Below, piece by piece: positions 12,275 through 51,121 of a stretch of 64,000 bases of DNA. Every line of letters starts with the position of its first letter. Position 1 is the stretch's first letter. The notes beneath the pieces were generated by a model. That model made no database searches. It was not told where the DNA came from and saw only the letters and a program-made list of their open reading frames with translations. Source of the DNA: Rosa chinensis (taxonomy: Eukaryota > Streptophyta > Magnoliopsida > Rosales > Rosaceae); NCBI RefSeq assembly GCF_002994745.2, contig NC_037094.1, forward strand, positions 4,758,001-4,822,000. Direction: 5' to 3'. The position numbers and the translations under genes were made by a program.

Positions 12275-12279
12275 CCATG

Positions 12280-14017: not shown

Positions 14018-14217
14018 CTGGGGCCAATAATAACCCTGCTTGAGAAGTGTGTGGGTTCTCTGCCATCCTGGGTGACCTGCTCACAGGGTGTCGTGACACT
14101 CCCTCATGAGCATTCTTAGTAGTCCGTCCGCTCGCGGAACAAACACTCGTCCTCCTTTGGCCATCAATATGTCATCCTCCATCCAAAATAGACGGCTCTT
14201 CCCTTCCTTCACCATTT

Positions 14218-15605
14218 TTATGAGGGATTACGCCATGGGATCCTTCTCCAAACTCTCCTTGATACGTTGCTTGATGTCTGTGGCAATGATACTGCTCGAC
14301 AAAGCGGCCAACACCTTGAGGGTGGCAAGGTCTGCCTTGCGACTGAGAGCATCAGCAACTTGGTTTGTATGCCCAGCCTTGTGTTCGAACTGGAAGTCAA
14401 ACTCTGCAAGAAACTCCTGCCACCCAGCCTGCTTAGGAGTTAACTTTGGCTGGGTTAGGAAGTGGCTGACTGCAGAATTGTCCGTCTTCACAAGGAACTT
14501 TGACCCCAACAAATAGTGTCGCAACGTCCTCAAATAGTGAATCACGGCTAGCAACTCTTTCTCTTAAGCCATGTACTTCCGCTCAGCTTCCGAGAGTTTA
14601 TGACTTTCATACACAAAAGGATGCCCCCGTTGCAGTAGAACACCTCCTAAGGAAAAGTCAGAAGCATCCGTCTGAACTTCAAACGGCTGATTCAGGTTAG
14701 GTAAGGCAAAGACCGGACCTTCCATCACGGCCTTCTTCAAATCTTGAAAGGCCTTCTCACAATCACTACTCCAGTCCCATGTCACTCCCTTCTTCAAGAG
14801 CTCAGTTAAGGGGGTTGTCTTCTTTGAGTAGTTCTCAATGAAACGTCGGTAGTAATTAGCCAACCCAAGAAAAGAACGTAGCTCTTTCACATTCTTGGGG
14901 TTTTGCCACTCCTTTATGGCTTCTACTTTCTCCATATCCATCCTGATTTGACCCCTTTCAATAACGTGACCTAGAAACTTAATGGTCACTTGCGCGAATG
15001 AGCACTTCTCGCGCTTGACATACAACTGATTGTCCCGCAACTGTTGGAACACCAGCTTAAGGTTATCTACGTGTTCTTCTAGGGTGGAGCTATATACCAC
15101 AATGTCATCCAAATAGACTACCACAAACTTATCCAAGTACTCATGGAAGACTTGGTTCATCAAGGTGCAGAATGTGGCTGACGCGTTGGTCAACCTGAAC
15201 GCATCACCAAGAACTCGAAGCCGCCATAATGGGTGACGCACGTGGTCTTGATTCATCGCCTTCTGCAATGCGAACTTGATAGTACCCCGAGCGAAGATCT
15301 AGCTTTGTGAAATACTTGGCACCACTGAGTTGGTCAAACAGATCTGCAATCAGAGGGATCGGGTACTTGTTGCGCATAGTGACTTTATTAAGAGCCCGAT
15401 AGTCCACACACAATCTCCAACTTCCATCGTGCTTCTTTTGAAACAACATGGGCACACCAAATGGGGCTTTAGATGGCCTAATGAATCCTGCCTTCAGCAG
15501 GTCCTCAAGCTGCTTTCGAAGTTCCTCCAGTTCTGGGGGAGCCATTCTGTAAGGCGCTTTTGCAGGCGATTTGGCCCCCGGAAGCAGTTCAATCTCATGG
15601 TCCAC
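14218..15605 (-). pseudogene. Ty3/gypsy reverse transcriptase and RNase H
   Basis: Reverse transcriptase motifs run in order: [44 protein letters not shown], then a frame change near 15240-15268, then the catalytic [10 protein letters not shown] and [12 protein letters not shown]. RNase H follows: [26 protein letters not shown] and HKAGHTNQVADALSRK, with a stop near 14563. At least two disruptions make this a non-functional copy. Confidence 0.9.
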
Positions 15606-16168
15606 ACTCCTTCTCGGGGGTAATTCCTTGGGAAGTTGGGAGGTATCACATCTATATAGCTCTCCAATACCCCCTCGATCTCCTTCAGAATCACTTCTCC
15701 TTTAATCTCATCCCTTATCATGGGAACTGCTACACAGGTAGGCTCATCACGCTTTACGCCTTTCTTGAACTGAAGGGCGGACAAGAGCCGGGGTTCACTT
15801 GGTTGTTCGATTCTTGCGGGAACCACATACGGCCTTTCTCTCATAATTAGAAAGTGTTGGGCACTAGGAATGGGAATGGCTTTGTTCGCTAATAAGAACT
15901 CCATTCCTAATATGACATCAAAGTCATCCATCTGAACAACTACGAGGTCGGTCTTCCCTTGCCAGTGACCCAACTTGAATGATTCCCCTCGAGATAGGCC
16001 CGTTGTGGGTGAGGCCTTTGAGTTCACAGCTTTCATGCTGCCCACATCCTTCTCCAACTTCAACCCCAACCTCCGAGCTTCAGCTTCTGACACAAAGTTG
16101 TGAGTGGCCCATGTGTCAACCATCACGCTCTTGGCTCCTTTCCCATTAATACTACCATCTACGAACAT
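15606..16168 (-). pseudogene. Ty3/gypsy aspartic protease region
   Basis: The frame contains VMVDTWATHNFVSEAEARRL. Retroviral-type proteases need D-T/S-G; here the glycine is replaced by tryptophan (DTW), so the protease would be inactive even if translated. The later motif DVILGMEFL matches the usual ILG(M/L)(D/E) block. Confidence 0.85.
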
Positions 16169-16198
16169 GAAGCCTTTAGCTTGGGACTTTTTAGGTGA

Positions 16199-17456
16199 TC
16201 ATGGTTGTTTCTCCACCGCACCCAAGAATCTCAAAGCTCCCATGTGACCAGGTTCCTCCTCAGGCTCTTGCTGATCCACTATTTCCTTCGATTGAATATG
16301 AGCCTGTAGGGCAGAGAGAGCAGTCTTATGAGGGCATTCATTCACTCTATGAGGTCCTCTGCACAAGAAGCATGCTAGTGGCTTTGGAGCATACCGAGGG
16401 ATTAAAAGGTCGAGGGGTGAAGACCCCTGTCGAGGCAACAAGCTTGGACGTTGTTGTGTCCCTCACGTTCACTATTCTCCTGTCCCTTCCTCCTGAGTTG
16501 GAAAATTTGGACTCCGCTCCCCCACTTCTACTCGGTCCAGGCCTTACATTTCTGTTGACATTCGTATTCGAAAACGGCGGAGTCTTCTTAGAAGAGTTCT
16601 CTTCGAATGTGTAGTCCGTCAACCTTTCAGCAGCAGCTTGTGCGGAGGCCAAATCTTGGACCCTCTAGCGCTGAAGTTCTGTCCTCGCCCATGGCTTTAA
16701 GCCTTCAAGGAAATAGAACAGCCGATCCTTCTCAGACATATCCGGGATGTCAAGCATGAGCACAGAGAACTTGTTCACAAAGTCTCAGATGTTGTTGGTG
16801 TGCTTGAGCTCCCTCAGTTGCCGTCTGGCAATGTATTCGACATTCTCGGGGAAGAACTGAGCTTTGAGCTCCTTCTTAAGGTCTTCCCAAGTGTCAATGG
16901 TGCATACTCCCCTTTGGATGTCATTATACTTGGTTCTCCACCATAGTTTCGCATCTCCCGACAAATACATTGTTGCCATGTTCACCTTCATCTCTTCCAA
17001 GTCTGGCTTCACTGCTCGGAAGTATTGCTCCATATCAAATAAGTAATTCTCAAGCTCCTTGGCATCTCGCGTCCTTCCAAATGCTTGAGGTTCCGGTATC
17101 TTTAACTTCATGTAGTCTGTCACAGGTTGGTTTCCCATCGCACGGATGATCAGGTTGAGCTTGGTACTCATCTCCACCAGCTCGTTCCTGAATGCATCAA
17201 TGGTGGCTCTGACATCTTCTGCCATATTGTCCACCGTCACCTGGAGTGTGTCAAGGGCATCACTCATTGCCTCCATTTTCTCGTCCGAAATGGGAGTTTC
17301 TTCCTCATTTATCTCCCTTCCGCTTCCTCGAGCTTTACATTTTTCAAGGGCCACAACTCGGTCCTTTAGGCTCTCCACCTCTGTCATCCGTGCCGCCAAC
17401 CCATCTAGGTCAACGCGGTCCAACACATTAGTGATATCAATCAACCTGTCGGGCAC
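16199..17456 (-). pseudogene. Ty3/gypsy gag
   Basis: The first block (17456-16785) has a coiled-coil-like N-terminus, then LKIPEPQAFGRTRDAKELEN, LWWRTKYNDI and QFFPENVEYIARRQLREL, the usual capsid (retrotrans_gag) region. It ends in a stop near 16783. Further on, CFLCRGPHRVNECP is the zinc knuckle. Stops and frame changes lie between the blocks. Confidence 0.88.
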
Positions 17457-17550
17457 CCCCGCAAGTTCTCCGAGTTGCTGGTCATACTAATCGAATCTTT
17501 GGTGGTTTGTCATCTTGCATGTCATCGTAGTGAGCTTCTTGAGCCGAGTT

Positions 17551-17563
17551 GGCTCTGATACCA
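17551..17563 (-). promoter_or_regulatory. Primer binding site, initiator Met-tRNA
   Basis: Minus strand reads TGGTATCAGAGCC two bases inside the 5' LTR; this is the usual plant primer site complementary to the 3' end of initiator methionine tRNA. Confidence 0.9.
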
Positions 17564-17565
17564 AC

Positions 17566-18093
17566 TGTCACAGGCCGAACTTTGCAATTTTCAAAGCAGA
17601 CCGTGCGGCACTTGCTAGCAAGCAAGTCAGCCAAGTAAGTACCTTGCAAGAACAATGAAAGCCACACAATATTAAAATAGTGCTAGCAACAAGCAAGAAC
17701 ACAATTATATAAACATTGGGCAACCACGAAGAACAATGAATAATCGAAAGGAAAGATCAAAGGGCAATCTCATGAGACACAGATGATTGAATAATTCCTC
17801 TTTTATTGATGATAAGACGGCAAGGGAGGCAAAAGTACATGTGCTTACCTATACTAGTTCACTAGTCCAAACTATGCTGACTAGGAACTCCTCCCCCCAA
17901 AGAGCATATCAGCCTTACATGAACATGACAGGAGGAAACATGAAAAAGGCTGAGGAGACTAATGCTAAAATAAAATAAATTACATAATTTGTAAATTACC
18001 AAAACATCCCTGGCACACAAGCAAACCAACCAAAGGCTTGACCAATGACCTTGGACAAGGTTGCTTACAGCATTACAAGTGCGGCCCCTAACA
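17566..18093 (-). repeat. 5' LTR of the Ty3/gypsy element
   Basis: Starts TGTCACAGGCCGAAC and ends GCGGCCCCTAACA on plus; scattered differences from the other LTR show the insertion is not very recent. Confidence 0.93.
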
Positions 18094-18098
18094 CCATG

Positions 18099-21035: not shown

Positions 21036-21109
21036 CAGAGCCGGCCCTGAGGGCTGCCCACTGAGGCAACCGTCTCAGGCCACCGGCTTTTAGGGGCCTC
21101 AAAGCTCTG

Positions 21110-23078
21110 TGATGTCGCTAAAAGCAAGCGCATAATTTAACCCTGAAATATCGTTAGTAGTATAAGCAAATAGGGATCGTTCTATTCCGGGGATTGAGGG
21201 TACACCTGTCATTGTGAAACAAATAAAGAAAAGTATTATTTACAAAAATAAAATAAAGAATATAAATATATACAATTGTATAAACAAATAAAGAATTAAA
21301 ATAATAAAGTATTATTTACAAAAATAAAATAAAGAATAAATATATACAAGTAAACACAAATAGGGGGGGGTTAGGATTCTTAAAATTAAAATTAAAATAA
21401 ATAAAATAAAGAAAACATAAAAACATATATACAGGGGTGGAACGCAAGGAACAAAGATCAAAATCAATTCCATGTAATCAAATTCGATTCAAACCCTATA
21501 ATTGTTCTTCCAAGTCATGAGAGAGGAGTTGATCATGTGAAACATTCGAAAGCAAATGATTTCCCATATTTTACTTTTCAATGCTAATTAACCTAAGCGA
21601 AAGCACCTAGATTAATCCTATCAAACATGCAATCAAACCCTAGAAAGCTAGTCAATCATGTCATGTTTAACGCATTACACATAGAGAAAGGCTATCAACT
21701 CAAGTGTACAACTTAGTTATGGAAAAGTCCACCTAATTGCAATCCTCTTCAATTAAATTCGATTCTTGTCCAGAACCTTTACTACTTTTGATTCAAGTTA
21801 CACAAAACGAAAAGTCGATTTCATGTTCTTAAACCTAGCACCAATTACATGCAAATCCTATAAGTGTCGACCCAAATAAGATAAACATATAAAAGTTTTC
21901 TGTAAAGCAAATTTAATCGAACAAACTCACATAAGCAACTTTGGAATCACAACATAAGAATCGAAATTCTTTATTCAATCATAAAAATTGGGCTTAAACT
22001 TTGCCCTAAACGTTAGGTTAACTAGAAACAAGTTCATACGAAATCAAACAAGGAAAACAAAAGATCATTACAAGGAAAAAGAATGAATTACACCGTGAGG
22101 GGAGATGGAGATGGAGAGCTAGATGGTTGGATCTTGAATCTTGGAAGCAAGCCTTCAAGGTGGATGATGGAGGATATGATCTTCACGGCTCCTTCTTCTT
22201 CTTCCTCTCCTTGCTTGAAAATGCAGAAACTTAAAACTAGAGAATGGAGAGAAAAATGGAAAGGAAATGGAGAGACAAAGAAGATGGAATGGATGAAGGA
22301 ATTTTTGTAGGAAATGGTGACTAAGGAAAATGGAGAGGAAATGGTGAGACAAAGAAGATGAGATGGATGAAGGAATGTGTCTAAGGAAAATGGAGAGGAA
22401 ATGGTGAGACAAAGAAGATGGAATGGATGAAGGAATTGGTTTTGAGAGTGAGAGGAGAAGTGTATTTATAGCCCAAAAAATGATGAATGGAGGGTGGAGA
22501 TGAACATAAATGAAGGGCTAGATATGTTAGACAAATTTGTAAAAAAATATCTTCCCACTTGTTTATCACTTGTTCAACTTGAATTGATTTTCCTCCTCAA
22601 GATTTTCCACTTGGTTGCAACTTTGATTTTCCTCCTCAAGATTTTCCACTTAGTTGCAACTTTGATTTTCCTCCTCAAGATTTTCCACTTGGTTGCAACT
22701 TTGATTTTCCTCCTCAAGATTTTCCACTTGCTTGCAACTTTGATTTTCCTCCTCAAGATTTTCCACTTAGTTGCAACTTTGATTTTCCTCCTCAAGATTT
22801 TCCACTTGGTTGCAACTTTGATTTTCCTCCTCAAGATTTTCCACTTGCTTGGAGGTCCTAAAAATAGAAACTAATAAGAAAAATAGAAACTTTCCTAAAA
22901 TGAAAAATGGCAACTTACTAAAAATGATAAATAGAAACTACAAAAATATAAACTTTCTACAAATATGAACTTTCCCAATCAAAGAATGGAAACTTTCCTA
23001 AACAGGATTTTAATAAGGAAATAACGTAAGAAATGTAGGGAAATGCAGTTAAAACGTCGCATTAAAATGCTCCTATCA
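21110..23078 (-). mobile_element. Solo LTR of the WOX-carrying retrotransposon family
   Basis: In reverse orientation this matches the 1.9-kb LTRs at 41119-43019 and 49190-51091 along most of its length: it opens TGATGTCGCTAAAAGC and closes GCTCCTATCA, the complements of those LTR ends. It is flanked by CTCTG on both sides (21105-21109, 23079-23083). A TATAAATA on minus (22463-22470) corresponds to the LTR promoter. It is more diverged than the two LTRs at 41-51 kb are from each other and has gained a 39-bp tandem array. Loss of the interior by LTR-LTR recombination is the usual origin. Confidence 0.9.
22586..22852. repeat. 39-bp tandem repeat, about 6.8 units
   Basis: Units start at 22586, 22625, 22664, 22703, 22742, 22781 and 22820, each opening GATTTTCCTCCTCAAG. 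As 39 is a multiple of 3, every frame stays open and gives 13-residue peptide repeats, but the array lies in LTR sequence and is absent from the young copies. Confidence 0.95.
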
Positions 23079-25120: not shown

Positions 25121-28100
25121 TTACAGGGAACCAAGGTAATCTCTTATCAAATTGAAGATGGGGTTGGCATTAGAAGCTCCCTCCAGTCTCTGAAATAAGA
25201 TTCCATCCATCCGGGCTTGAACTCCATCAGAAAATGTTAAGTCTTGCAACAGTGTCTTCATCGTTTGCTCGACTCCAACCAGAGTACTCCCTACGCCACT
25301 TAAAAGTTCTGGCAGTGAAGGGGAGGGTCTTGCAAGCTCCACAAGTGTAACCTGGAATAATTGGAACAAACCAATTAAAGAACTTTTTACAAAAAGATAC
25401 TGACAAGAACAAAGTAAAAAACGCAAGAAGATCATACACACAACAAATTATGAAGCTAACTTGCTGCATTAACTTATTATTATCTCTCCTATATGCCTAG
25501 CCACTGAAATAAGATTTTTGTCACCAACCTCTGTGTCTTGTGGTATATTTGCCTTGAGCTTTGCTATTGCAACAGCCCGAGAAAGTCCACCAATGGCATC
25601 AACTAAACCCCTCGAAGCTGCATCTTTACCAGCCCAAACTCTCCCTTGTGCAACTTCCTCCATTTTATCTGCCTGGCAACATAACAGAAGGGACATATTT
25701 AAATTCCAGGTAGAAAGGAGTGAAAAGAAAGTGACCAAAACTAAAAAAGAAAGTGACTAAAACTAAAACGAAGATTCCATCAGAACATACAGTCATTGAT
25801 CTGGAAGAAGCTGCCTTGTCCCGAAATTGCTTATACGAATTCTGTGCAGACTTAGCAAAGAGTTCAGCTTCCTCTGGTCTGAGTTAGGAAGAAAATGAGA
25901 ATTAATAATTTTGTCTCTCTCTAGGATTATAAAAGAGAGCACACAAAACAGAGTATGCAACAAGACAATGTACTTGAAGGGTCGTTGTTCAGCTGCAAGA
26001 ACCTCCGCAAATTTCCCCCTTGATATGATTTCCTTGTTGAACCCAATCTTCTCATACAGTTTTCCCAGGTTAAACTTCCCTGCAAACAGAAAACTATAAG
26101 ACAACAACTACTACAGAATTTAGAGGACTCATCTGAATACCAAACGAAAGGGTATGAAGACTTTAAACGGCGAACAGATAAAAACGATCACAAGTATTAC
26201 AAATATCTATTACGCATTTAGATGCGTCTGTCTCTGCTTTTACCAAGGTGGATATAGATCACTTTGATACTATCTGACCAACTTCCTCTTTTAATAGTTC
26301 TACTCCTATCAACTTTGTTTTTTCTCCAAGTCAATTATATAAAATAAATTCATATTCACCTGTGACAACTCCAATGGAACCAGTTAAGGTTAGATTTTCT
26401 GCAACAATGGCATCTGCTGCCATAGCCATATAGTATCCTCCACTTGCTGCCACATCAGACATTGATGCAATGACCGGCTTTGATGCAGCCAAAAGTTTGA
26501 TTTCCCTCCACATCCTGCAAACCATTAAGTCATTAACACATCTGGTAACCAGTTAACTGCATGCAGACATAGACAGTGTGCAATTCTTCTGCCAAACAGT
26601 ATTTGACAACACAATCAGAATTATATAGTTTAGGATCACATATTTTACATTAATATATACTAGCACTTACAAATCAGAAGCAAGGGCATCACCTCCAGGG
26701 CTGTCAATTCGGATAATAGCAGCCTTGTATCTTTTTGATTCTGGATGGACAAAAGAATATCATAAGACGCAGGCTAAAGATTGGAACAAATCATGATGCA
26801 AATAACCTGTTCTCAGAGTTCTCAATTCCAAAACACGAGATATTACATGATTAACCTATGAACTTAAATTAGAAAGACCACAATACCTCTTATAGTACGG
26901 ATCTTCTCAATGAACTGTTCTCCAACAATAGATGATCCAGGTAGACTAAAAGAACCTCGTACACGACTAATACTGCCTGAGGCTCTTATTATGGCTATCT
27001 GGTCTTTACCGCCTGATAAACCAAGAGTCCATTTCCGAACCTTAGAATATTTCCTGTTGCAATCAAGAAGAAGGAAATAAGTAACCAATGGTTTTTATCG
27101 ATCAGACCACAAGATATTTCATTATACTTAAAAATACGACTTTTGTCATATGAATCAACACAAACCAGAAGTCACATACTGATGACTACCTGTAATCAAC
27201 CATAGGAAGCTTTTTCTCTTTTTGTACTCCAAGTCTTTCCTTCAACATTGAAGTAACCTGAAAGGGATGCATATTACTTGAATGCGTCCTGAATATTATC
27301 ACATAAAGAAGAAAGCTTTCAAGAACAACCACTCCCCTGATGACTTTCATATCAAATTTCAACAACTGAACAACTTAATCATAACATATCCAAAATTAGT
27401 AACCCGTAAGAACCCTGTATATTGTAAAACAGTTAGACCAGGTAAATACCCTGACATTGAAGTTCAATACACTCTGAAAAACTAGAGGAGCATGGAGAGA
27501 AACTGAACTTTAGACACACTCTCTCAACTCTCTGTAAATATACTTTCTACAATATCTGGATCCCAAAACATATCAATATAGCCTTCTAATTCCCCAGTTC
27601 TCTAAATGCTTGATCTATGGAACAGATATTGGTTCTCTAAACATTAAGCATACCTCATCATCATACTGTATGTTTGTGATCCAGCCCTCTTCTTTCAGCT
27701 TTTCTACTTGGTACACCCCTTCATTAACAAACTTCTCAATATCTTCTCTCTTTTTTCCTGCAGAAACATTTAGTTAGTCAATAGGTTATTTAAAGACCAC
27801 AACATTAGCCAAATACCAAATCCCAAAGCACCTCTTGTAGAAGAAATTATGTCCAGCCAGTTCCCATATATGTTATCGAGCAATGCTGTCAGCATCTCAC
27901 AATTTTCTTCGGACATGCTCGTGCGCGCAAGTTGGTCACCAGCACTTTTATATTTACCAATCCTTTCCACTTGTGGCTCAACTCCAATTTTCTCAAGAAC
28001 ACCTGAAAAACAAAATTTCATGCCAACCTCCTTAAGTACATGATTTCAGTCATAAGCATCCAGACAAAACCATAACATTCATATTTCAAAGTTAATACAT

Positions 28101-29047
28101 AAATGGGGAGAAGAATAGCAGATAAACTAACCTCTTACAAATGATGCCTGAACACTGAGACCAAACAAGGAAAAATAAGCACTTGGAGGGGCATAAATCT
28201 CCTGACAAGCAGAAGCAAGGTAATACTCTTTTTCGCTACAAGCAGGTGCGTATGCCACAACAAACTTACCTGTAACAATCCATATAAGCTCAAATGCACA
28301 TCTTCAAACACATAATCACAATTCGCAACATTTAGTCGGTACCTGATTTCTGGAAGTCCAATATATGCCTCCGAATTTCTTCCACTTTACCCCATCCACA
28401 GTTCAAGCTCTCAATTTGAAGATACACACCAGCAATTCGGGGATCATGTGCAGCTTTCACAAAATTCTCACAAATTTGAGGCAGCGATAATCCCCTAGAG
28501 AATCGACTTTTTAACTGATCAGTTATCTGGAAAACCAAAAACCACAGCTCTTTGAAAATCAACACCAAACACTGTAAATACACAAAATCAAAAGCAAAAA
28601 ATGTGAGAATGGATCAAAAACCTGGCCGCGCAATGTCATGGTCAAGACGCTTCCCTTCTTGACCCGCTCCCAAGGATAAGCAAAGAGCATCCGAAGCTTC
28701 ACGACGAAGCTCTTCCAGAGGCTCGCCTCCTGAAACTGGAACTCGCCGCTCGGATAGTCCTTGTCCGTCTTAGCTTTGGCATTCTCGGCGTCGATTTTAG
28801 CCTCGGGAGCTGAAACGGCGCCGTTTTCGGTCGTTTCATCTGGTTTGGTGGCGGACGACGAGTCGTCGAAGGCGCGTAGGGAGAGGCGGCGGCGGAGAGA
28901 GAGAGGAGGAGGAGAGTGAGAGAAGAGAGGACGGCAGTGAGAGTGGAGGAGCGGCGTGGAGAGAGAGGCTCCGACGACGGCGGTGAAGGCTCGGGTGTGG
29001 ATTGGGGTGAGGTGGTGGGAAGCCTGGAGGAGAATCAGCTTCGACAT
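25121..29047 (-). CDS. SPPA: Signal peptide peptidase A (protease IV family), chloroplastic, intact
   Basis: Thirteen exons (minus): 29047-28622, 28526-28343, 28269-28132, 28002-27832, 27757-27654, 27257-27190, 27053-26887, 26740-26671, 26514-26360, 26079-25974, 25878-25791, 25672-25529, 25351-25121. All joins keep frame and the sum is 683 codons plus stop, close to Arabidopsis SPPA (677 aa as I recall). The first ~70 residues are Ser/Arg/His-rich and suit a chloroplast transit peptide. The family's Ser-Lys dyad is present: Lys in GKYKSA at about residue 268 and Ser in AASGGYY at about 467; the spacing of ~199 matches E. coli SppA (K209/S409). The protein is a thylakoid-associated serine protease implicated in light acclimation (family knowledge). 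Exon 1 has a Kozak-like ATG at 29047 after a stop-free leader; the ATG further upstream is less likely. This is the parent-type copy of the pseudogene at 1-2485. Confidence 0.93.
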
Positions 29048-41113: not shown

Positions 41114-41118
41114 CATGC

Positions 41119-43019
41119 TGATAGGAGCATTTTAATGTGGTATTTTAATAGTTAATTCCTCATATTTTACTTAGTTAATTCCTTAACGAATCGATTTTTA
41201 ACTGAATTTCTATTTTCTTAGGTACATTGGAGTAAATGATGGTGAAATGAGCATTATGTCCACACTTACCTACAAATGGTGGAGATAAAATTGAAGTAAA
41301 TGAGTAGGAAATCCATCATCATCATCACCCAAAAATATTCCATCTTTTAGGGTGTAATCATCATGTTTTCTCCATCATTTCTCACACTAATCCACCATCA
41401 TCATCACCCAAAAACATTCCATGTTTTAGGGTGTAATCATCATGTTTTCTCCATCATTACTCACACTAACATACTCCACTTTCATTATTTTTCTTCCACT
41501 CATCATTTCACTCTTCTTTTTCTTCCCTATATAAACACCTTCTCCTCTCATTCCTACACACATTCCTTCATCCATTCCATCTCCTTGTCTCACCATTTCC
41601 TCTCCATTTTCCTTAGTCACCATTTCCTATATACATTCCTTCATCCATTCCATCTCCTTGTCTCACCATTTCCTCTCCATTTTCCTTAGTCACCATTTCC
41701 TATATACATTCCTTCATTCATTTCATCTCCTTGTCTCACCATTTCCTCTCCATTTTCCTTAGTCACACATTCCTTCATCCATTTCATCTCCTTGTCTCAC
41801 CATTTCCTCTCCATTTTCCTTAGTCACCAATTCCTTCATCCATCTCATCTTCTTTGTCTCTCCATTTCCTTTTCATTTTTCTCTCCATTCTCTAGTTTTA
41901 AGTTTCTGCATTTTCAAGCAAGGAGAGGAAGAAGAAGAAGGAGCCGTGAAGATCATATCCTCCATCATCCACCTTGAAGGCTTGCTTCCAAGATTCAAGA
42001 TCCAACCATCTAGCTCTCCATCTCCATCTCCACTCACGGTGTAATTCGTTCCTTTTCCTTGTAACCTTTTTGGTTTCCTTGTTTGATTTCGTATGAACTT
42101 GTTTCTAGTTAACAATAATGTTTAGGGCAAAGTTTAAGCCCAATTTCTATGTTTAAATAAAGTTTTCGAATTCTATAATTGTGATTCTAAGTCGCTTATG
42201 TGAGTTTGTTCGATTAAATTTGCTTTACAGAAAACTTTTATATGTTTATCTTATTTGGGTCGACACTTATAGGATTTGCATGTAATTGGTGCTAGGTTTA
42301 AGAACATGAAATCGACTTTTCGTTTTGTGTAACTTGAATCAAAAGTAGTAAAGGTTCTGGACAAGAATCGAATTTAATTGAAGAGGATTGCAATTAGGTG
42401 GACTTTTCCATAACTAAGTTGTACACTTGAGTTGATAGCCTTTCTCTATGTCTAATGCATTGAACATGTCATGATTGACTAGCTTTCTAGGGCTTGATTG
42501 CATGTTTGATAGAATTAATCTAGGTGCTTTCGCTTAGGTTAATTAGCATTGAAAAGTAAAATATGGGAAATCATTTGCTTTCGAATGTTTCACATGATCA
42601 ACTCCTCTCTCATGACTTGGAAGAACAATTATAGGGTTTGAATTGAATTTGATTACATGGAATTGATTTTGATCTTTGTTCCTTGCGTTCCACCCTTGTA
42701 TATATGTTTTTATGTTTTCTTTATTTTATTTATTTTAATTTTAATTTTAAGAATCCTAATCCCCCCTTATTTGTGTTTACTTGTATATATTTATTCTTTA
42801 TTTTATTTTTGTAAATAATACTTTATTATTTTAATTCTTTATTTGTTTATACAATTGTATATATTTATATTCTTTATTTTATTTTTGTAAATAATACTTT
42901 TCTTTATTTGTTTCACAATTACAAGTGTACCCTCAATCCCCGGATAGAACGATCCCTATTTGCTTATACTACTAACGATATTTCAGGGTTAAATTATGCG
43001 CTTCCCAAAAGCGACATCA
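41119..43019 (+). repeat. Left (5') LTR with promoter
   Basis: 1901 bp, TG...CA ends (TGATAGGAGC / GCGACATCA). TATATAAA at 41528-41535 is a likely promoter. About 4.5 tandem units of 73/61 bp ('cattccttcatccattcc' style) lie at 41561-41850. Confidence 0.95.
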
Positions 43020-43870
43020 ATTTTTGGCGCCGTTGCCGGGGATTGAAAAATCACTTGTTAAATTGTGTCATTTATTGTATATATTTGTTGTATATAAATT
43101 GTTTGAAACTTAGTTTAAATTAACTAGGATGTTATTTATATTATTGAACACGAATTTTAATTGTAGGTTGTAAATTGAGAGGAATAGGTGAAGTCTCTTT
43201 TGTTAATATTGGCCTAAACCCCTTATTGGTACCTAGCTCAGGTCCCTTAAGGTTGAGGGCGGCCTTTATTAACACTTGTTGAACTGTCTTCACACTTATG
43301 AACTTTTTCATCTTAGTAAGTATAGCCTATGTGGAATGGTGTCTAGGAAGGGGACAACGTTCATGACGGGTTTTTGAATCCAGAAGTGCTTGCAAATGGG
43401 CCTAAACCACAATGTGGGAGTAGCTCATGCCAAAATGGATTTTTCCTCTCGTGTTCGCCCTCCCCCACCTGGCCATTTCAGTAAGGTTGCCCAAACGATT
43501 TGAAAGGGAGTTTGTGTCTAGGCGACTATACTTGGGCCGCACGTCCACTTGATTTACCGCTTGGAATTTGATTCGATATCAATAATGTTTATAATAAAAG
43601 AAATACTTGTGAATACTCTATACGTGTAAATTATTTTGTTGTTTCACACTTTAAACTTGTAAAAATACTTTTCACGTTTTATACTCACTTGAGTACTTAA
43701 CTTGTGTCTTATGTACAATATACTTGTTAATTATACTTGTAGTTTGTAATTAATATTTATACTTGTTTTTATTTTGTATTTCTTTGTTAATTATAGTTAC
43801 TAACTTTATTTAATGTAGGTACCGTCTGGCTGCAAGACGTAAAATACAAGCGTTACTTGGGAGGCAACCC
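43020..43870 (+). repeat. Leader module, copy 1 of an 851-bp direct repeat
   Basis: Starts with the primer site and ends at 'ttgggaggcaaccc'. The second copy is 46537-47387. Differences seen are few (for example g43101 / a46618; near 43853). Ends of the repeat coincide with the LTR junction on the left. Confidence 0.93.
43025..43042 (+). promoter_or_regulatory. Primer binding site 1, tRNA-Asp
   Basis: TGGCGCCGTTGCCGGGGA, 18 bases complementary to the 3' end of plant aspartate tRNA, five bases after the left LTR. Confidence 0.9.
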
Positions 43871-44216
43871 ATGCAAATCAGATTTGCTTTCTTTATCCTT
43901 ATCTTTTATTTTTCGTTTTTGCTTATTTGTTTTAGTTGTTATTTTCGTAAATTTCATCCCTATATGCTTACTTATTTCATTGCATGCTTTTAATTGATTA
44001 CATTGAAGATAATGCAATATTTAAGTGTGGGGGAAGAGATTTATATTTTTGTCTTTCATTTTGAGTCCAATATATATTTATATTTGTCTTTTATTTTTTG
44101 AGTCCTTTATATATATATATAAAAAAAAAAAAAAACTGCATTCATTCAGTCTTATTAAATTCAGCTATTTACAAAAAAAAAAAAACAAAAAATAATAATA
44201 ATAATAATACTCTAAA

Positions 44217-44867
44217 CTAAGCCATGTCTGCATCTTTGTAGGAGTTGAGGCTGAGCTCAAGGGAAATGCGAGAGTCACCGCCATAGCCGCTACCTCCGTC
44301 GGAAGTAATCTTCATGTTGCCAAAGATGTCCTCACCATGCATGGGGAATAGTGGAAGGGTTTCAATCTCCTGGTGATCTCCTCCTCGTTGTTCCATGAAA
44401 GATTGTCCTCCTGTTGTGCCAAAGGAGGTAGTACTGGTATTAGTGTTGAAGGGTGAGGAGGAATATAGGTCAACACCATAGCCGACACGTGACCCAAAGT
44501 TTAGATCAATGGATCTACCATCATCAGTAGAACTAGTGGATCCAAAATTGAGATCGAGAGATCCACCAACCGGAACGTTCCGAAATTCCTTCAACTTCTG
44601 CCTCTCACGAGCCTTGAGGTTCTGGAACCAAAAGAAGACGTTTTTGTCCTCGATCTGCCCATACTGTTTCAGATGGAGGCAGATCTCTTGAATCTGCTCT
44701 GGAGTTGGGTACTTAAAACCCTTATCATAGTAAATGCCCTTGAGGATTCTTAGTTGAGGCGGTGTGGGAGCCCACCGGTTATTAGTCCCGGCTGCTTGGT
44801 TGTTTCCTCCATCCTCGATTTGTTGCTGGGTCTGTTGCTCCATTAGTTGCAGAGTTCGTGGTTCCAT
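44217..44867 (-). CDS. WUSCHEL-clade homeobox (WOX) protein carried antisense inside an LTR retrotransposon
   Basis: An intact, intronless 216-aa frame. Homeodomain at residues 31-93 (RWAPTPPQLRILKGIYYDKG at its start, WFQN at 80-83, KARERQK after it). It has the extra loop residues of the WUS group. Usual KNVFYWFQNHKAR reads KNVFFWFQNLKAR, so two normally conserved positions differ. The WUS box TLPLFPMH is perfect (170-177), and an EAR-like SLELSLN lies near the end (202-208); together these are the repression motifs of WUS-clade factors. Two further LDLNFGS-type repeats occur at 104-126. WUS is about 290 aa and WOX5 about 180, so it is intermediate. WUS-clade genes normally have introns, so absence here suggests a processed copy. 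A TATA box lies 114 bp upstream. Family function: stem-cell maintenance transcription factor; activity of this copy is inference. Confidence 0.9.
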   Translation of the reverse strand: MEPRTLQLMEQQTQQQIEDGGNNQAAGTNNRWAPTPPQLRILKGIYYDKGFKYPTPEQIQEICLHLKQYGQIEDKNVFFWFQNLKARERQKLKEFRNVPVGGSLDLNFGSTSSTDDGRSIDLNFGSRVGYGVDLYSSSPFNTNTSTTSFGTTGGQSFMEQRGGDHQEIETLPLFPMHGEDIFGNMKITSDGGSGYGGDSRISLELSLNSYKDADMA

Positions 44868-44980
44868 GTTGATGAAGAAAGGATTTGAGTTTCGAAAGAA
44901 AGGCTGAAGGGTTGAGAGAGAAAGGCTGGAACTCGGAAGAATTTTCTTTTGGAGTGAATAGTCGCTCCCTCAGAATGCAC

Positions 44981-44990
44981 CTATTTATAG
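44981..44990 (-). promoter_or_regulatory. TATA box of the WOX gene
   Basis: CTATAAATAG on minus, about 114 bp before the WOX ATG; position and sequence fit a plant core promoter. Confidence 0.65.
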
Positions 44991-45097
44991 AACGAGTGAG
45001 CGGATCTCTACCGTTGGATGGACGATCTCTAAGATTAAATCTACGCGTTGGATTAAAGTCACCCGAAAACACGGAAAAGCTGTTGGTGCGTGGAAGA

Positions 45098-45294
45098 CAC
45101 GTGGGGGAACCAAGCGAATCTCGAGGAGCTGTGACAGACAAGCTACAGCAGAAAGCAGGTTTAATTGCCGTGAATCAAGGAAAAGAAAGGACGCGTGGGG
45201 GAATCAAACGAATCTCGAGGATCCGTGACAGACAAGCTATAGCCGAAAGCATGCCATAAATCCAGGAAAAGAAAGGAATATTTACACGTGGGGG
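45098..45294. repeat. 94-bp tandem repeat with G-box cores upstream of WOX
   Basis: CACGTGGGGG (45098), CGCGTGGGGG (45192) and CACGTGGGGG (45285) open two full units and the start of a third, each unit with 'gaatctcgagga' and 'gtgacagacaagcta'. CACGTG is the plant G-box. The array lies between the divergent WOX and ORF start codons. Confidence 0.85.
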
Positions 45295-45473
45295 AGTTTC
45301 TTGGGCCGTGAACTATCATAACTCTTCTCCTTCCCGGAGAAGCTTTGTTAAAACCGTGTGCCTGTTGAGATTTCTACCCTATTTTGTGCTTTACATATAC
45401 ATCCTTTTTTGTCTCCTCCAGATTTTACTAAGGTTTGTCTAAGCGTGCAGTTTCAAATTCCTTCTACTTCCTT

Positions 45474-46004
45474 ATGGCTCGAACCAAGGTTACCTCTCGC
45501 AGGGGCGTCAATCAACGCCGTGTTCTCTCTTTGGAAGAAGAAGGTCGTCAAGCGGCCACTAGAGCTGGACTTACTCGTCCATGGGACCATCGTCCTATCC
45601 GTGAGCGTACCCGCAGTCCCCCTCCTCTGCCTCGTCGCTCTCCCAGACTGCATCCCGAAGAGTCTTCTTCCTCACCAGCTGCTCGTGCTCCTCGGCCTAT
45701 GGCCACCCTGGAAAGCTTGTCGGATTTGATTGATGATTTGCGTTCCTCTCTCCGCGATGGTATTATGGTGACAGATTGGAGAGTCAATTGCATGATCGAT
45801 TACATCTCTGAGATGAACTGCTCTTTGATCCGCTGTCACACTGCAATAAACAAGCTTGCTCAGGAAGTCAATAACTTGCAGAGTTATCCTCCTGGGTTTC
45901 CTCGCAAGGACGCTACTGCATCACAACATGAGGACCCGCCTCTGAAGGCTGAAACCAGCAAGAGGGCTGCCACTCGCCCGCATACCGCTCCTCCAAAGGA
46001 GTAA
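45474..46004 (+). CDS. Retrotransposon-borne ORF of unknown function, 176 aa
   Basis: An ATG at 45474 opens MARTKVTSRRGVNQRRVLSL and runs 176 codons to TAA. The first ~75 residues are rich in Arg, Ser and Pro and basic (RTRSPPPLPRRSPRLHPEE inside), suggesting disorder and possible nucleic-acid binding. Residues ~77-137 look helical (LESLSDLIDDLRSSL; CHTAINKLAQEVNNLQ), perhaps a coiled coil. The tail is again polar. No zinc knuckle, protease or polymerase motif. It is in the sense direction of the retrotransposon and divergent from the WOX gene, starting 606 bp from it. After the stop comes 'ggcatgggaggcaaccca', a segment also found after the leader modules. It may be an accessory or gag-replacing protein; I do not recognise it. 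Confidence 0.55.
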   Translation: MARTKVTSRRGVNQRRVLSLEEEGRQAATRAGLTRPWDHRPIRERTRSPPPLPRRSPRLHPEESSSSPAARAPRPMATLESLSDLIDDLRSSLRDGIMVTDWRVNCMIDYISEMNCSLIRCHTAINKLAQEVNNLQSYPPGFPRKDATASQHEDPPLKAETSKRAATRPHTAPPKE

Positions 46005-46536
46005 ATGGAGGTACAAGTCTAGGCTGAGAGACTTTAAACATTAAGCGCAGCGGCATGGGAGGCAACCCATTTCAACCGTAGCTGTGGAGGAGACATCAAA
46101 CGCAAATTTGCTTTCTTAAACTCTTCCTTCTATTTTATTTTCATGAATTTTAAGTTGTTTTAGGTTTCGTTGTGTTAACTTTCTCTTCTATGCTTGATTT
46201 ATGCTTTGCATGATTTATATTTGTTATACATTGAGGACAATGCATGAATTAAGTATGGGGGACGGATTATTGCTTTATTGTGTTTTAGTAGTTAGTATAT
46301 ATAAAAAAAAATAAAAAAAAAAATAGTTGATGTTGGATTGTGTTTTTATTGTGTTTTTAATTGATGTTGTGATACACTAAGGTATATTGGATTAAACATA
46401 GTCTTGAAAAAGGGTAGCTGTTTCAGTCCCATTGCACATCGAGACTCCCTGTTCCCGTACCTAAGTGTTGAAATTAAATTAAATTGTAAAAAAAAAAAAA
46501 AAAAAAAAAATTGTGCGCTTGCTTTCAGGCGCATCA

Positions 46537-47387
46537 ATTTTTGGCGCCGTTGCCGGGGATTGAAAAATCACTTGTTAAATTGTGTCATTTATTGTATATA
46601 TTTGTTGTATATAAATTATTTGAAACTTAGTTTAAATTAACTAGGATGTTATTTATATTATTGAACACGAATTTTAATTGTAGGTTGTAAATTGAGAGGA
46701 ATAGGTGAAGTCTCTTTTGTTAATATTGGCCTAAACCCCTTATTGGTACCTAGCTCAGGTCCCTTAAGGTTGAGGGCGGCCTTTATTAACACTTGTTGAA
46801 CTGTCTTCACACTTATGAACTTTTTCATCTTAGTAAGTATAGCCTATGTGGAATGGTGTCTAGGAAGGGGACAACGTTCATGACGGGTTTTTGAATCCAG
46901 AAGTGCTTGCAAATGGGCCTAAACCACAATGTGGGAGTAGCTCATGCCAAAATGGATTTTTCCTCTCGTGTTCGCCCTCCCCCACCTGGCCATTTCAGTA
47001 AGGTTGCCCAAACGATTTGAAAGGGAGTTTGTGTCTAGGCGACTATACTTGGGCCGCACGTCCACTTGATTTACCGCTTGGAATTTGATTCGATATCAAT
47101 AATGTTTATAATAAAAGAAATACTTGTGAATACTCTATACGTGTAAATTATTTTGTTGTTTCACACTTTAAACTTGTAAAAATACTTTTCACGTTTTATA
47201 CTCACTTGAGTACTTAACTTGTGTCTTATGTACAATATACTTGTTAATTATACTTGTAGTTTGTAATTAATATTTATACTTGTTTTTATTTTGTATTTCT
47301 TTGTTAATTATAGTTACTAACTTTATTTAATGTAGGTACCGTCTGGCTGCAAGACGTAAAATACAAGCGCTGCTTGGGAGGCAACCC
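46537..47387 (+). repeat. Leader module, copy 2, with a second primer site
   Basis: Repeats 43020-43870 including the 18-base tRNA-Asp site (46542-46559). Just before it, 'gtgcgcttgctttcaggcgcatca' resembles but does not equal the end of the flanking LTRs, as if the 3' end of a related LTR were retained. Confidence 0.93.
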
Positions 47388-49189
47388 AATTCCAACGTAG
47401 CTGTGGAGGAGTCGTCAACGCAGATTTGTTTTCTCTTTCCCTTTTACTTCTCCAATTTTCCTTTGTTTTAGTAGTCATTTTCGTAAATTTCATCCCTATA
47501 TGCTTAAGTGTCTCATTGCATGCTAATAATTGATTACATTGAGGACAATGCAATATTTAAGTGTGGGGGAAGGGATTTACACTTTTATCTTGAGTCATAT
47601 ATATTGAAAAATACAAAAAAAAAATCGAAAAATGTCAAAAATTTTTTTAAAAAATTTCGTTGCTTTTGTTTTTGTTTTTGAGTCTTAGGATGCTCTTAAC
47701 GTCTAGGATGAACATGTCTTTGAATTCATGGCTGAAGGTTTTCACAATCGAAATAGGACTTAATTGAATTCTGTGGTTAATCGACATTGTGATGCTTGTA
47801 TGAAGATTTGAGATAGGATTGTAACTTGGTTCATTAAGCATGCTAGGATTAAGTCTAATTCATTTGACCCTAAGTGAGTTGTTGAGCTAAAATACTTTCT
47901 TTTCGAGTGCTTATTGATAAATTCATAATTTCATGGCTGTATTTGCAAAACCTCATCTTTCTTTGAAAATCCAATGATCATGTGTCATAGATATTAATGG
48001 ACTAGAGAATACTAGAACTCGACTTTTGTGACTGTCAAAACTTGTATGCCATAATATGCCCTGATCTTGGATAGGATAGAAGGCATTAGGGTAACCACCA
48101 TAGCCAAACAAGCTTGTGTCCCCAATAGTGCCCGTCGTGGGACTCTTTAGAATGAACCCCTTTGAGCCTACATTGAAAACCTTTGTTTCATCACCCTCAC
48201 TACCCTACCATGAGCTTAGTACAGGATATCTCTACCCTTGTGCTAGGGACTTAGTAGAGCATGACATAGTATGTAGGGGTGACGATGAAAGACAAGTGTG
48301 GGGTGGGGAAAATCAAAGAAAAAAAAAGAAAAAAAATTTTGCCTTGAAAAAAAAAAAAAAAAGAAAGAAAGAAAGAAAGAAAAGCGGCAAAAGAGAAGAA
48401 AAAAATTGAAAAGAAAACTCTTGGGAAAATGTTGAAGTGTGGTTTTGGACTTGCAAATTTGTAGAAGGCTCAAAGTTGAAAATTATGCCTTTGTCCATTC
48501 CCATGTTGGTTAGAGTGAAGGTTTGGCCCAAAACAATGATATTTGGTCTACAAAAATAATGACATAAGGTGGTCCTTATATGCTCTGCTAGGTCCTTAGG
48601 ATTTTTTTTGTATCCTTAATCTTCATTTCGAAAACCCTAGCTTAGCCCCATTACAACCTGTTTTAAGTGCTAACTTGATCCTTGAGATGGGCAATCTTTG
48701 GTTAGTGGAGTCAGTTACGCAGTCGAGCTTATGGTTTAGGTCCATTTGTGCACTTAGTCATTTCATGAGGTCTTTAAAAATTCTTCACAAAATGTGTTTA
48801 TTGATGAAATATGCAAGCTGTTTGTTGCCTTACAATTTGTTCTCTTGCATATACTTGAGTGTGAAGCTTTTAAGCATAGCCATTTCTGAGAGAAAAATCG
48901 AGAGTATGCCCTGTGAGTTTGGATTGGACTTGTTCAAAACATGCTATCATTCACTGTATAACTTAAGTTCTCCATATCTTGCTTAGTCATATGAATGTCA
49001 CAGGTTTATTAACCATGGAATTATCTTTGTGATTTTGATTAAGTGTTTAACGTGAAAGCCATGAGTTTGGAGTCTCTGAGACAACAGTTATGGGCAGTAG
49101 AGTCATTTACTTACTTTTTGTTGAGTCTTTATTTTGTTTTGTGTTTTGATTTTGCTAAGGGACTAGCAAAAGCTAAGTGTGGGGGAATT
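47388..49189 (+). other. Non-coding 3' region of the retrotransposon with polypurine tract
   Basis: No long frame with protein features; A-rich stretches near 48310-48375 explain the lysine-rich ORF there. 'agtgtgggggaatt' (49176-49189) right before the 3' LTR is the polypurine tract. Confidence 0.75.
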
Positions 49190-51091
49190 TGATAGGAGCA
49201 TTTTAATGTGGTATTTTAATAGTTAATTCCTCATATTTTACTTAGTTAATTCCTTAACGAATCGATTTTTAACTGAATTTCTATTTTCTTAGGTACATTG
49301 GAGTAAATGATGGTGAAATGAGCATTATGTCCACACTTACCTACAAATGGTGGAGATAAAATTGAAGTAAATGAGTAGGAAATCCATCATCATCATCACC
49401 CAAAAATATTCCATCTTTTAGGGTGTAATCATCATGTTTTCTCCATCATTTCTCACACTAATCCACCATCATCATCACCCAAAAACATTCCATGTTTTAG
49501 GGTGTAATCATCATGTTTTCTCCATCATTACTCACACTAACATACTCCACTTTCATTATTTTTCTTCCACTCATCATTTCACTCTTCTTTTTCTTCCCTA
49601 TATAAACACCTTCTCCTCTCATTCCTACACACATTCCTTCATCCATTCCATCTCCTTGTCTCACCATTTCCTCTCCATTTTCCTTAGTCACCATTTCCTA
49701 TATACATTCCTTCATCCATTCCATCTCCTTGTCTCACCATTTCCTCTCCATTTTCCTTAGTCACCATTTCCTATATACATTCCTTCATTCATTTCATCTC
49801 CTTGTCTCACCATTTCCTCTCCATTTTCCTTAGTCACACATTCCTTCATCCATTTCATCTCCTTGTCTCACCATTTCCTCTCCATTTTCCTTAGTCACCA
49901 ATTCCTTCATCCATCTCATCTTCTTTGTCTCTCCATTTCCTTTTCATTTTTCTCTCCATTCTCTAGTTTTAAGTTTCTGCATTTTCAAGCAAGGAGAGGA
50001 AGAAGAAGAAGGAGCCGTGAAGATCATATCCTCCATCATCCACCTTGAAGGCTTGCTTCCAAGATTCAAGATCCAACCATCTAGCTCTCCATCTCCATCT
50101 CCACTCACGGTGTAATTCGTTCCTTTTCCTTGTAACCTTTTTGGTTTCCTTGTTTGATTTCGTATGAACTTGTTTCTAGTTAACAATAATGTTTAGGGCA
50201 AAGTTTAAGCCCAATTTCTATGTTTAAATAAAGTTTTCGAATTCTATAATTGTGATTCTAAGTCGCTTATGTGAGTTTGTTCGATTAAATTTGCTTTACA
50301 GAAAACTTTTATATGTTTATCTTATTTGGGTCGACACTTATAGGATTTGCATGTAATTGGTGCTAGGTTTAAGAACATGAAATCGACTTTTCGTTTTGTG
50401 TAACTTGAATCAAAAGTAGTAAAGGTTCTGGACAAGAATCGAATTTAATTGAAGAGGATTGCAATTAGGTGGACTTTTCCATAACTAAGTTGTACACTTG
50501 AGTTGATAGCCTTTCTCTATGTCTAATGCATTGAACATGTCATGATTGACTAGCTTTCTAGGGCTTGATTGCATGTTTGATAGAATTAATCTAGGTGCTT
50601 TCGCTTAGGTTAATTAGCATTGAAAAGTAAAATATGGGAAATCATTTGCTTTCGAATGTTTCACATGATCAACTCCTCTCTCATGACTTGGAAGAACAAT
50701 TATAGGGTTTGAATTGAATTTGATTACATGGAATTGATTTTGATCTTTGTTCCTTGCGTTCCACCCTTGTATATATGTTTTTATGTTTTCTTTATTTTAT
50801 TTATTTTAATTTTAATTTTAAGAATCCTAATCCCCCCCTTATTTGTGTTTACTTGTATATATTTATTCTTTATTTTATTTTTGTAAATAATACTTTATTA
50901 TTTTAATTCTTTATTTGTTTATACAATTGTATATATTTATATTCTTTATTTTATTTTTGTAAATAATACTTTTCTTTATTTGTTTCACAATTACAAGTGT
51001 ACCCTCAATCCCCGGATAGAATGATCCCTATTTGCTTATACTACTAACGATATTTCAGGGTTAAATTATGCGCTTCCCAAAAGCGACATCA
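49190..51091 (+). repeat. Right (3') LTR
   Basis: 1902 bp. Differences from the left LTR that I found: one extra C in the run near 50833 and t51022 instead of c42950. TATA at 49599-49606; tandem units at 49632-49921. Confidence 0.95.
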
Positions 51092-51121
51092 CATGCCATA
51101 AGTGATAAATTATATTAAAAT

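Follow-up and report, generated by a model that had tools for sequence, protein, structure and literature searches.

A WUSCHEL-type homeobox gene, probably derived from a host mRNA, carried in antisense by rose LTR retrotransposons

Antisense open reading frames located between pol and the 3' LTR (aORF-3R) are known from maize Grande, rice RIRE2 and Silene Retand (PMC7264820, in the part available to us), and the pol-bearing rose relatives described below carry an antisense gene in the same position. In Grande, gene23 has been reported to have its own antisense promoter and to encode a nuclear protein, and the same part of PMC7264820 describes the origin of such frames as mostly unknown and similar genes as lacking outside transposable elements. 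The rose elements differ from the aORF-3R class in that the product comes from a known developmental regulator and in that the donor gene, the ends of the insert and loci free of the WUS gene are all visible, which makes them a case in which the origin of an antisense frame can be read. Gene transduction by plant LTR elements, as in maize Bs1, likewise places host sequence within an LTR element, in the rose case from a spliced mRNA. Transductions are, according to a review, usually in sense orientation and limited to one or a few copies. The rose gene, in contrast, is antisense, present in hundreds of copies, constrained, and found in three LTR families. Retroviruses capture cellular regulators, and the likeness is that in rose a cell-fate regulator was taken as spliced mRNA and altered; the rose case differs in its antisense orientation and its own (predicted) promoter, with no virion or infection known, and, if our reading is true, would parallel in plants the capture of regulators by retroviruses. 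The AlkB m6A-demethylase domain of Phalaenopsis Ty3 elements, too, resembles a host domain, has become fixed in one Ty3 lineage of plants and has been proposed to serve the element (PMC9289625); there a single lineage of 25-kb elements encodes an RNA demethylase, whereas the rose elements encode a homeodomain protein, and the part of the main text of PMC9289625 available to us contains none of the terms "homeo", "Rosa" and "WUS".

The window, a stretch of 64,000 nucleotides from Rosa chinensis, contains at positions 41119-51091 what is, judged from its sequence, a young non-autonomous LTR retrotransposon of the Athila type and a recent insertion. We regard it as likely that this element belongs to a large group of LTR elements of rose in which an antisense accessory gene, derived from host WUSCHEL mRNA, was captured, shared, constrained and put to the service of the element. 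The structural marks listed in the initial annotation were all verified: the 5' LTR (41119-43019, plus strand, TG...CA) and the 3' LTR (49190-51091, plus strand), of 1901 and 1902 bp, differ by one mismatch and one gap column in pairwise alignment; they are flanked by the target site duplication CATGC (41114-41118 on the left, 51092-51096 on the right); and the plus strand carries the primer binding site TGGCGCCGTTGCCGGGGA (43025-43042), which we take to be of the tRNA-Asp type, and the polypurine tract AAGTGTGGGGGAATT (49175-49189). A published R. canina ATHILA probe-primer 19-mer (PMC12222009) matches both LTRs with one mismatch (site 42987-43005 in the 5' LTR) and is found exactly in a third LTR within the window, with a mean of 0 in shuffled sequences (n=100); as far as LTR sequence goes, the name Athila refers to this one 19-mer of the published Rosa ATHILA. 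The Pfam scan covered six of the nine ORFs of at least 80 aa, and the five other than the WOX frame matched no family, which is why we consider the copy in the window devoid of gag and pol domains; elements of this type would need to be mobilised in trans.

The minus strand of the element contains an intact frame of 216 aa (44217-44867), assigned to the WUSCHEL type by ORF, Pfam, PDB and AlphaFold comparisons, which bore out the complete antisense WOX gene proposed before. Its homeodomain (residues 30-90, 44598-44780; Pfam E 1.2e-10) is followed by two DLNFG repeats (residues 105-125, 44493-44555) that are evident in the alignment and lacking in host RcWUS, by the WUS box TLPLFPMH (residues 170-177, 44337-44360) and by the EAR-like motif LELSLN (residues 203-208, 44244-44261); the match to WUSCHEL in PDB has an E of 1.2e-21. 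The TATA box TATAAATAG (44983-44989, minus strand), also correctly recognised at the outset, lies 122 nt upstream of the WOX ATG, within a block that aligns with other copies. The stretch 44217-45000, for which transcripts had been proposed to be sought, is coding up to 44867, and its remainder (44868-45000) consists of the leader and the TATA box; the whole inter-ORF region (44868-45473) comprises the WOX 5' leader and an element-derived candidate promoter, whose activity is predicted from sequence.

The AlphaFold model of the protein has a mean pLDDT of 57, with confidence confined to the homeodomain, where blocks within residues 31-90 reach means of 88-93 and the top PDB match is the WUS homeodomain on DNA. 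The base-contacting residues of WUS, R38, Q89, N90 and R94 (PMC7203112, in the part available to us), are retained in the alignment of the window protein with WUSCHEL from PDB, the numbering having been transferred by us; among the 13 copies of the Tat group that were read (L019-L030, L037), 12 have G, E, V or R in place of Q89. Three marks of the WUS clade, namely a WUS-type homeodomain, a WUS box and descent from WUS, are found in the window protein, and the homeodomain, the WUS box and the EAR-like motif, which are common to RcWUS and WUSCHEL, are kept in most copies. Compared with RcWUS, the element protein has lost the middle region and gained the DLNFG repeats, and its gene is intronless, with a different C-terminal tail and promoter.

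Two genome searches gave 162 and 158 close matches, corresponding to at least 278 distinct full-length places among the matches listed (22 partial rows, 13 + 9, of the 300 listed are excluded from this count). An in-frame stop occurs in 16 of these 278 copies, and 269 of them fall in four genomic blocks, the borders of which were set post hoc, after the data had been seen. There are also at least 91 "older" places, a figure that refers to the upper part of the list and omits the host gene, second pieces and lower-scoring rows of the third family. A second copy read whole (L043) has the same design as the window element, with its own target site duplication and LTRs. In a tree of RcWUS and the element copies, from which other WOX genes were left out, RcWUS branches as sister to the remaining rose sequences included, with a support of 0.978, and R. 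rugosa proteins are interleaved; of the tree placement foreseen by the initial annotation, it is this relation to the host gene that was obtained. Published gene counts may be set beside these numbers. A study of R. chinensis (PMC11405225, in the part available to us) counts 381 "WOX genes", 364 of which are specific to roses; its authors assumed a whole-genome duplication behind them, but detected no collinear genes and called for further data. Another source, likewise available in part, has a WUS orthogroup with 46 members in R. rugosa and 14 in R. chinensis, and reports no recent whole-genome duplication in roses (PMC8213826). Element-borne copies of WUS account for the 364 rose-only genes.

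The absence of gag and pol holds for the window copy but not for all of its relatives, some of which carry the same gene beside pol: L034 and L036 among Athila-type elements, and L020, L026 and L027 among Tat-type ones. PF13456 was detected in all three of these Tat loci and is absent from L034 and L036; what we take to be the mark of Tat is an additional RNase H domain that follows RT-RNase H, the remaining loci of the Tat group having been assigned by flanking similarity. None of the five pol-bearing loci has an uninterrupted pol, the frame being broken by in-frame stops or by gaps between pieces, and no LTR pair was seen within the 10-kb stretches examined around L020, L026 and L027. L034 reads pol, antisense WOX, ORF-B, tail and start of the 3' LTR, and is 93-95% alike to the window element in ORF-B, the tail and the first 177 bp of the LTR. 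The gene also occurs in a third LTR family, with a primer binding site of the tRNA-Met type (L033). On this sequence evidence, the gene and its TATA block occur together in three unrelated LTR families.

One reading of this distribution is that WUS was captured by accident and copied without effect, intact frames being the product of recent bursts. In its favour, the window copy is very young, with one mismatch between its LTRs, the young Athila set taken alone has an omega of 0.60 (p = 0.019), and expression is almost nil in one tissue series, in which 359 of the 364 clade I-V genes are nearly silent during rooting (PMC11405225, in the part available to us). Between element lineages, however, codon models give an omega of about 0.5 and reject omega = 1 (2dlnL 32.2, p = 1.4e-8; 12 Athila and third-family sequences, L036 appearing in the pairwise table and being excluded here with other copies, kappa under omega = 1 chosen from a grid; per-domain omegas used 8 sequences), and the pooled dN/dS is 0.37 in the coding frame as against 0.94-1.12 in four other frames and 0.47 in the fifth, which shares the wobble positions. 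A neutral passenger is disfavoured by these two results, as it is by the persistence of the homeodomain, the WUS box and the EAR-like motif in most copies and by the recurrence of gene and TATA block together across three LTR families, and we consider it unlikely. Recent constraint is either weak or seen in too few data, since the young Athila value is accompanied by an omega of 0.65 in Tat-248 (p = 0.16); one close Tat pair has a dN/dS of 1.32, and several Tat copies contain stops. The proposal that the elements spread a WUS-type gene stands, the frame being neither confined to a single copy nor relaxed in its dN/dS, while of the suggested hitch-hiker under its own promoter only the promoter, as a TATA block common to three families, fares well.

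Selection might also act through the host, if rose had co-opted some of the copies and preserved their frames with no gain to the element. WUS-type genes are potent in plants, which speaks for this reading, as do the five of the 364 clade I-V genes that have counts >10 in at least three rooting stages (PMC11405225, in the part available to us). Yet hundreds of dispersed, near-identical copies, crowded into four blocks as described, are unlike host genes kept in position, and the constraint spans the element tree; host use is in our opinion improbable. We find it very improbable that the antisense transcript matters instead of the protein, by pairing with element RNA and feeding siRNA or tuning copying: PMC7264820 (in the part available to us) considers that antisense ORFs might act through dsRNA, and the TATA block is common to copies, but the constraint acts on amino acids and not on nucleotides only.

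As to the origin of the gene, all element copies read lack the introns of RcWUS. In the Tat-type locus L019 the gene lies within a 1.46-kb insert, which consists of a spliced copy of RcWUS, running approximately from the start of the mRNA to codon 290, and a duplicated stretch of the element that contains the TATA box; all five WUS-free Tat loci read have uninterrupted sequence at the insert site. In copies that retain this end, similarity to the host breaks off close to codon 290, and the TATA block found in the three element families was not found upstream of RcWUS. Capture of the host promoter was rejected, as the promoter region of the window has no match to the RcWUS locus at E 1e-5, and so was a LINE-type retrocopy, as the copies read stop short of the host stop codon and lack the host 3' UTR. 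A Tat-derived tail follows the gene in all six Athila or third-family relatives L031-L036, each scoring above all 300 letter shuffles, marginally in L032 (46 against a shuffle maximum of 45) and L033 (34 against 32); none was detected in the window copy (score 23, shuffled maximum 28), because its C-terminal tail is too altered. That several WUS retrocopies landed independently in different elements might be proposed from the presence of the gene in three unrelated families and from the window tail, but the common end near codon 290, the Tat-derived tail in the six relatives (barely in two) and the shared TATA block across families make this extremely improbable.

Evidently, then, an existing Tat-type Ty3 element acquired in a rose ancestor the insert with spliced RcWUS and the TATA-bearing duplicate; the gene and its TATA block are present also in the tRNA-Met-primed family and in Athila-type elements, in some of which they stand beside pol; and the protein was altered while remaining under purifying selection between element lineages. 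The capture itself may have occurred by a template switch of reverse transcriptase onto WUS mRNA while plus-strand DNA was being made; such a switch would explain both the antisense orientation and the break at the mRNA 5' end.

The broad preservation of the protein in hundreds of places suggests that the elements themselves use a plant developmental regulator. The product would be a DNA-binding, TOPLESS-recruiting repressor expressed from the antisense promoter, acting probably in the meristem or in germ-line precursor cells, and its likeliest benefit would be to keep the host cell, or the expression of the element, in a stem-cell or germ-line-precursor state, such that insertions are inherited. 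More tentatively, and with some doubt on our part, a stem-cell regulator turned accessory gene may also have become a new effector, with extra EAR-like DLN repeats and, in Tat, a changed recognition helix, steering cell fate or silencing in the meristem or in precursors of the germ line, to the benefit of the inheritance of insertions, and behaving as a cassette shared across unrelated LTR families. The WUS target motifs TGAATGAA, TCACGTGA and TTAATGG (PMC7203112, in the part available to us) show no enrichment in either the LTR or the internal region, on which ground self-regulation through the LTR was rejected; in the whole window TGAATGAA occurs 11 times against 6.7 expected, a number reached in 5 of 100 shuffles. 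In these elements the idea of a selfish element that carries a meristem regulator can be put to the test, in a crop where regeneration, sports and double flowers matter.

Two further features of the window element may be recorded. Its 5' block (43011-44055, plus strand) is repeated at 46529-47591 with 94.75% identity, the repeat including a second primer binding site (46542-46559) and being missing at the corresponding place in L034 and L043. ORF-B (45474-46004, plus strand, 176 aa) faces the WOX gene across the promoter region in divergent orientation and has no Pfam family. We do not claim selection on it, since 10 of the 14 pairwise dN/dS values against the window are at 0.7-1.0 or >1.6, the pooled value being 0.56 (15 entries, three with a stop, representing 13 distinct copies, as L002 = L042 and L005 = L043). 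A homologue search with ORF-B found six homologous proteins, and both of those named by organism are from R. chinensis.

The element proposed in the initial annotation is a genuine LTR element: LTRs at 41119-43019 (5') and 49190-51091 (3'), a CATGC target site duplication (TSD), a primer binding site (PBS) and a polypurine tract (PPT) are all present, and its structure is well supported. A single mismatch and a single gap separate the LTRs; at substitution rates between 7e-9 and 1.3e-8 per site per year, their divergence would place the insertion about 20-40 thousand years ago, as an order of magnitude only. By its sequence, the LTR is assigned to the Athila type. A 19-mer of the R. canina centromeric ATHILA probe, as given in an excerpt of PMC12222009, is found with one mismatch in each of the two LTRs (shuffle mean 0) and without mismatch in a third LTR of the window, inverted, at 21124-21142; the same paper reports ATHILA signals in all R. 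chinensis centromeric regions. The element has an internal duplication (43011-44055 and 46529-47591) with a second PBS, a feature absent at this position in two Athila-type relatives, L034 and L043, and has the appearance of having been assembled from two relatives as a mosaic.

The antisense frame at 44217-44867 is intact and encodes a 216-aa protein with a WUS-type homeodomain. In the structural model, the homeodomain is predicted with confidence and has WUS-HD on DNA as its nearest fold; mean pLDDT is 57, and the chain outside the homeodomain is not confidently predicted. By alignment, the window protein retains R38, Q89, N90 and R94, which make base contacts in WUS (excerpt of PMC7203112). 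Of the 13 Tat-group copies (L019-L030 and L037), 12 have Gly, Glu, Val or Arg at the position of Q89 while keeping Asn90, which suggests that DNA specificity is altered or lost in the Tat branch. Most copies keep both the WUS box (missing or altered in 4 of 73 tree sequences) and the EAR-like motif (3 of 73). The middle region of host WUS is gone from Athila-type and third-family copies; these copies, most R. rugosa proteins and one Tat-group copy (L037) carry DLN-type repeats, which are absent from host RcWUS.

Further copies, for which the initial annotation proposed a search, are numerous, and the high WOX copy number is well supported. Whole-genome searches gave at least 162 matches to the window protein (best 150 of 682 candidates scored) and at least 158 to P0018, a second WOX subtype (best 150 of 691 scored). 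At least 278 distinct full-length places were found, 16 with an in-frame stop; these are the full-length rows among 300 listed, and the other 22, partial and some probably frame-shifted, were discarded, which makes the proportion of intact copies an upper bound. ORF-B, the 176-aa frame at 45474-46004 (+), is likewise recurrent, with at least 150 matches among 701 candidates and three with a stop among the matches listed. L043, read whole on contig C3, has LTRs 99.4% alike and the TSD ATCAA on both sides; TSDs were established in this element and the window's. The 5' end of L042 is disturbed.

Four blocks (C1 56-68, C2 34-88, C3 0-17 and C7 2-21 Mb), with borders set post hoc and covering 20% of the genome, contain 269 of the 278 young places and 13 of the 91 older ones. 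Seven of the remaining young places are on small contigs C33 and C43, and two are elsewhere; the window itself is C7:4758001-4822000 of the 515-Mb genome. 'Old Blush', probably the rose sequenced here, is described as a cross of R. chinensis spontanea with R. odorata gigantea (excerpt of PMC6786968); a burst in one parent would produce such crowding, and the blocks are a possible marker of parental haplotypes. Same-strand WOX pairs 7.0-7.3 kb apart were seen at C3:1455964/1462992, C2:69354242/69361548 and C33:12973/20080, as if elements shared LTRs in tandem.

Host RcWUS has three exons. Its introns are absent from every element copy read, and both are cleanly missing in full-length Tat copies. 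The Tat-group copy L019 matches the host exons at 94-97%. In L019 and L020, host similarity extends upstream past the ATG for about 220 bp, ending about 35 nt past TATAGTG of the host promoter; this break would fit the mRNA start. At the other end, host similarity ceases at about codon 290, short of the stop codon, and a non-host tail follows. A 250-bp piece of this Tat tail gave at least 46 rows at 40 places (best 40 of 123 candidates), 18 with and 22 without a WUS match within 2 kb in a partial WUS list. In all five WUS-free loci read (those of highest similarity among the 22), the tail continues after 6 nt into the next element sequence with no WUS between; the sequence so joined is 1.46 kb distant in L019 and 1.21 kb in L022. 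Because all five show the empty site, WUS entered a pre-existing Tat element, and its capture is well supported. The insert comprises the WUS copy and about 370 bp, TATA box inside, duplicating another element stretch (in L019, 4412-4767 and 5870-6229, 93%). We infer that WUS mRNA was copied during plus-strand synthesis of the element, which would account both for the gene lying antisense and for the copy breaking off at the mRNA start.

A TATA block (TATAAATAGGTGCATTCT and neighbours, with few changes) lies upstream of WOX in 8 of 19 element copies scanned, L020 being left out: Tat-group L019, L021, L023 and L030, third-family L031 and L033, L034, and the window element. A scan based on the word TATAAAT detected no such block in the other 11 copies or upstream of RcWUS. 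In each of L031-L036, the Tat tail aligns with the sequence downstream of the gene better than any of 300 letter shuffles, by a narrow margin in L032 and L033; after the window WOX, no alignment exceeded shuffles. The protein tree places RcWUS as sister to the remaining rose sequences included (support 0.978), with Fragaria and Argentina WUS outside; Athila-type and third-family copies alternate, and R. rugosa sequences, compared as proteins alone, fall in several places. Given this scatter and a split of R. chinensis and R. rugosa about 5.26 million years ago (excerpt of PMC8213826), the capture is probably older than that split.

A pol frame in L034, encoding RT, RNase H and the zinc and core domains of integrase, is followed by antisense WOX, ORF-B, tail and the start of the 3' LTR. 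The WOX of L034 differs from that of the window at dS 0.21, though the two elements agree at 93-95% in ORF-B (93%), tail (94%) and the start of the 3' LTR (95% over the first 177 bp); L043 WOX is 98.9% like the window's, and much of its tail only about 70%. These discordant similarities mean that element modules recombine. In L036, antisense WOX adjoins a pol 66% identical to that of L034. In L020, L026 and L027 it adjoins another kind of pol with a second RNase H domain, a mark of Tat elements; L034 and L026 pol are 29% and 36% identical in two matching stretches, L020 and L026 82%. The pol frame is in pieces (in-frame stops or gaps) in all five pol-bearing loci, and therefore none is a demonstrated autonomous copy. 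Tat-group extras include an antisense plant-mobile-domain ORF in L037 and a gag domain in L028. In third-family L033, which is flanked by 2.4-kb repeats (99.9%), the LTR ends are TGTAATACCC and GGGGCGTGACA; after the latter comes TGGTATCAGAGC, a PBS of tRNA-Met type. L035 has a related LTR pair (83%) without a visible PBS of this kind; L031 and L032 were assigned to the third family through flanking similarity. No third-family pol was seen in the loci read.

The initial annotation suggested that the element spreads a meristem regulator, to be checked by dN/dS; selection between lineages is well supported, but the Athila set alone gives a weak signal (p 0.019). Pairwise dN/dS is 0.24-0.55 among Athila-type copies, third family and RcWUS (0.69-0.86 in three close pairs), 0.34-0.70 in the Tat-248 subset with L037 and RcWUS (1.32 in one pair), and 0.24-0.72 in full-length Tat copies. 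Maximum likelihood omega, under a model without recombination, is 0.60 for Athila (n=8), 0.49 for the third family (n=4), 0.51-0.53 for both, 0.65 for Tat-248 (n=4) and 0.52 for full-length Tat (n=5). Neutrality is rejected for Athila and third family jointly (2dlnL 32.2, p 1.4e-8), the third family (p 2e-6) and full-length Tat (p 3e-4); it is not rejected for Tat-248 alone (n=4, p 0.16). By protein part (8 sequences), omega is 0.42 in the homeodomain, 0.53 in the C-terminus and 0.47 in the rest. In the true frame, pooled dN/dS comes to 0.37, against 0.94-1.12 in four other frames; one reverse frame, whose third positions are those of the gene, gives 0.47.

Excerpts of PMC11405225 report 381 RcWOX, 226 of them on chromosome 2, scarcely any expression for 359 of the 364 clade I-V genes across a rooting series, and a motif G/DSHISLELSLNSYRDADMA, which is the C-terminus of P0018; 'transpos' is absent from its main text. 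The WUS orthogroup has 46 genes in R. rugosa versus 14 in R. chinensis (PMC8213826, in part). PMC6786968 mentions a Tat-like family, abundant and equipped with an additional ORF that it interprets as a transposase domain, and PMC11963269, on Retand elements, contains no 'homeo', 'WUS' or 'WOX'. Among the matches listed in open-licence literature, no title links WUS or WOX to a retrotransposon carrier.

Elsewhere in the window, an inverted Athila-type LTR piece (21108-22851), 95% like the element's LTR, includes a 39-bp-period repeat at 22584-22851. A minus-strand Ty3 element at 12274-18097 has 0.54-kb LTR-like repeats (94%) and pieces of gag, protease and RT, and positions 1-2376 and 26367-28727 form a direct repeat over 2.4 kb, 93% identical.
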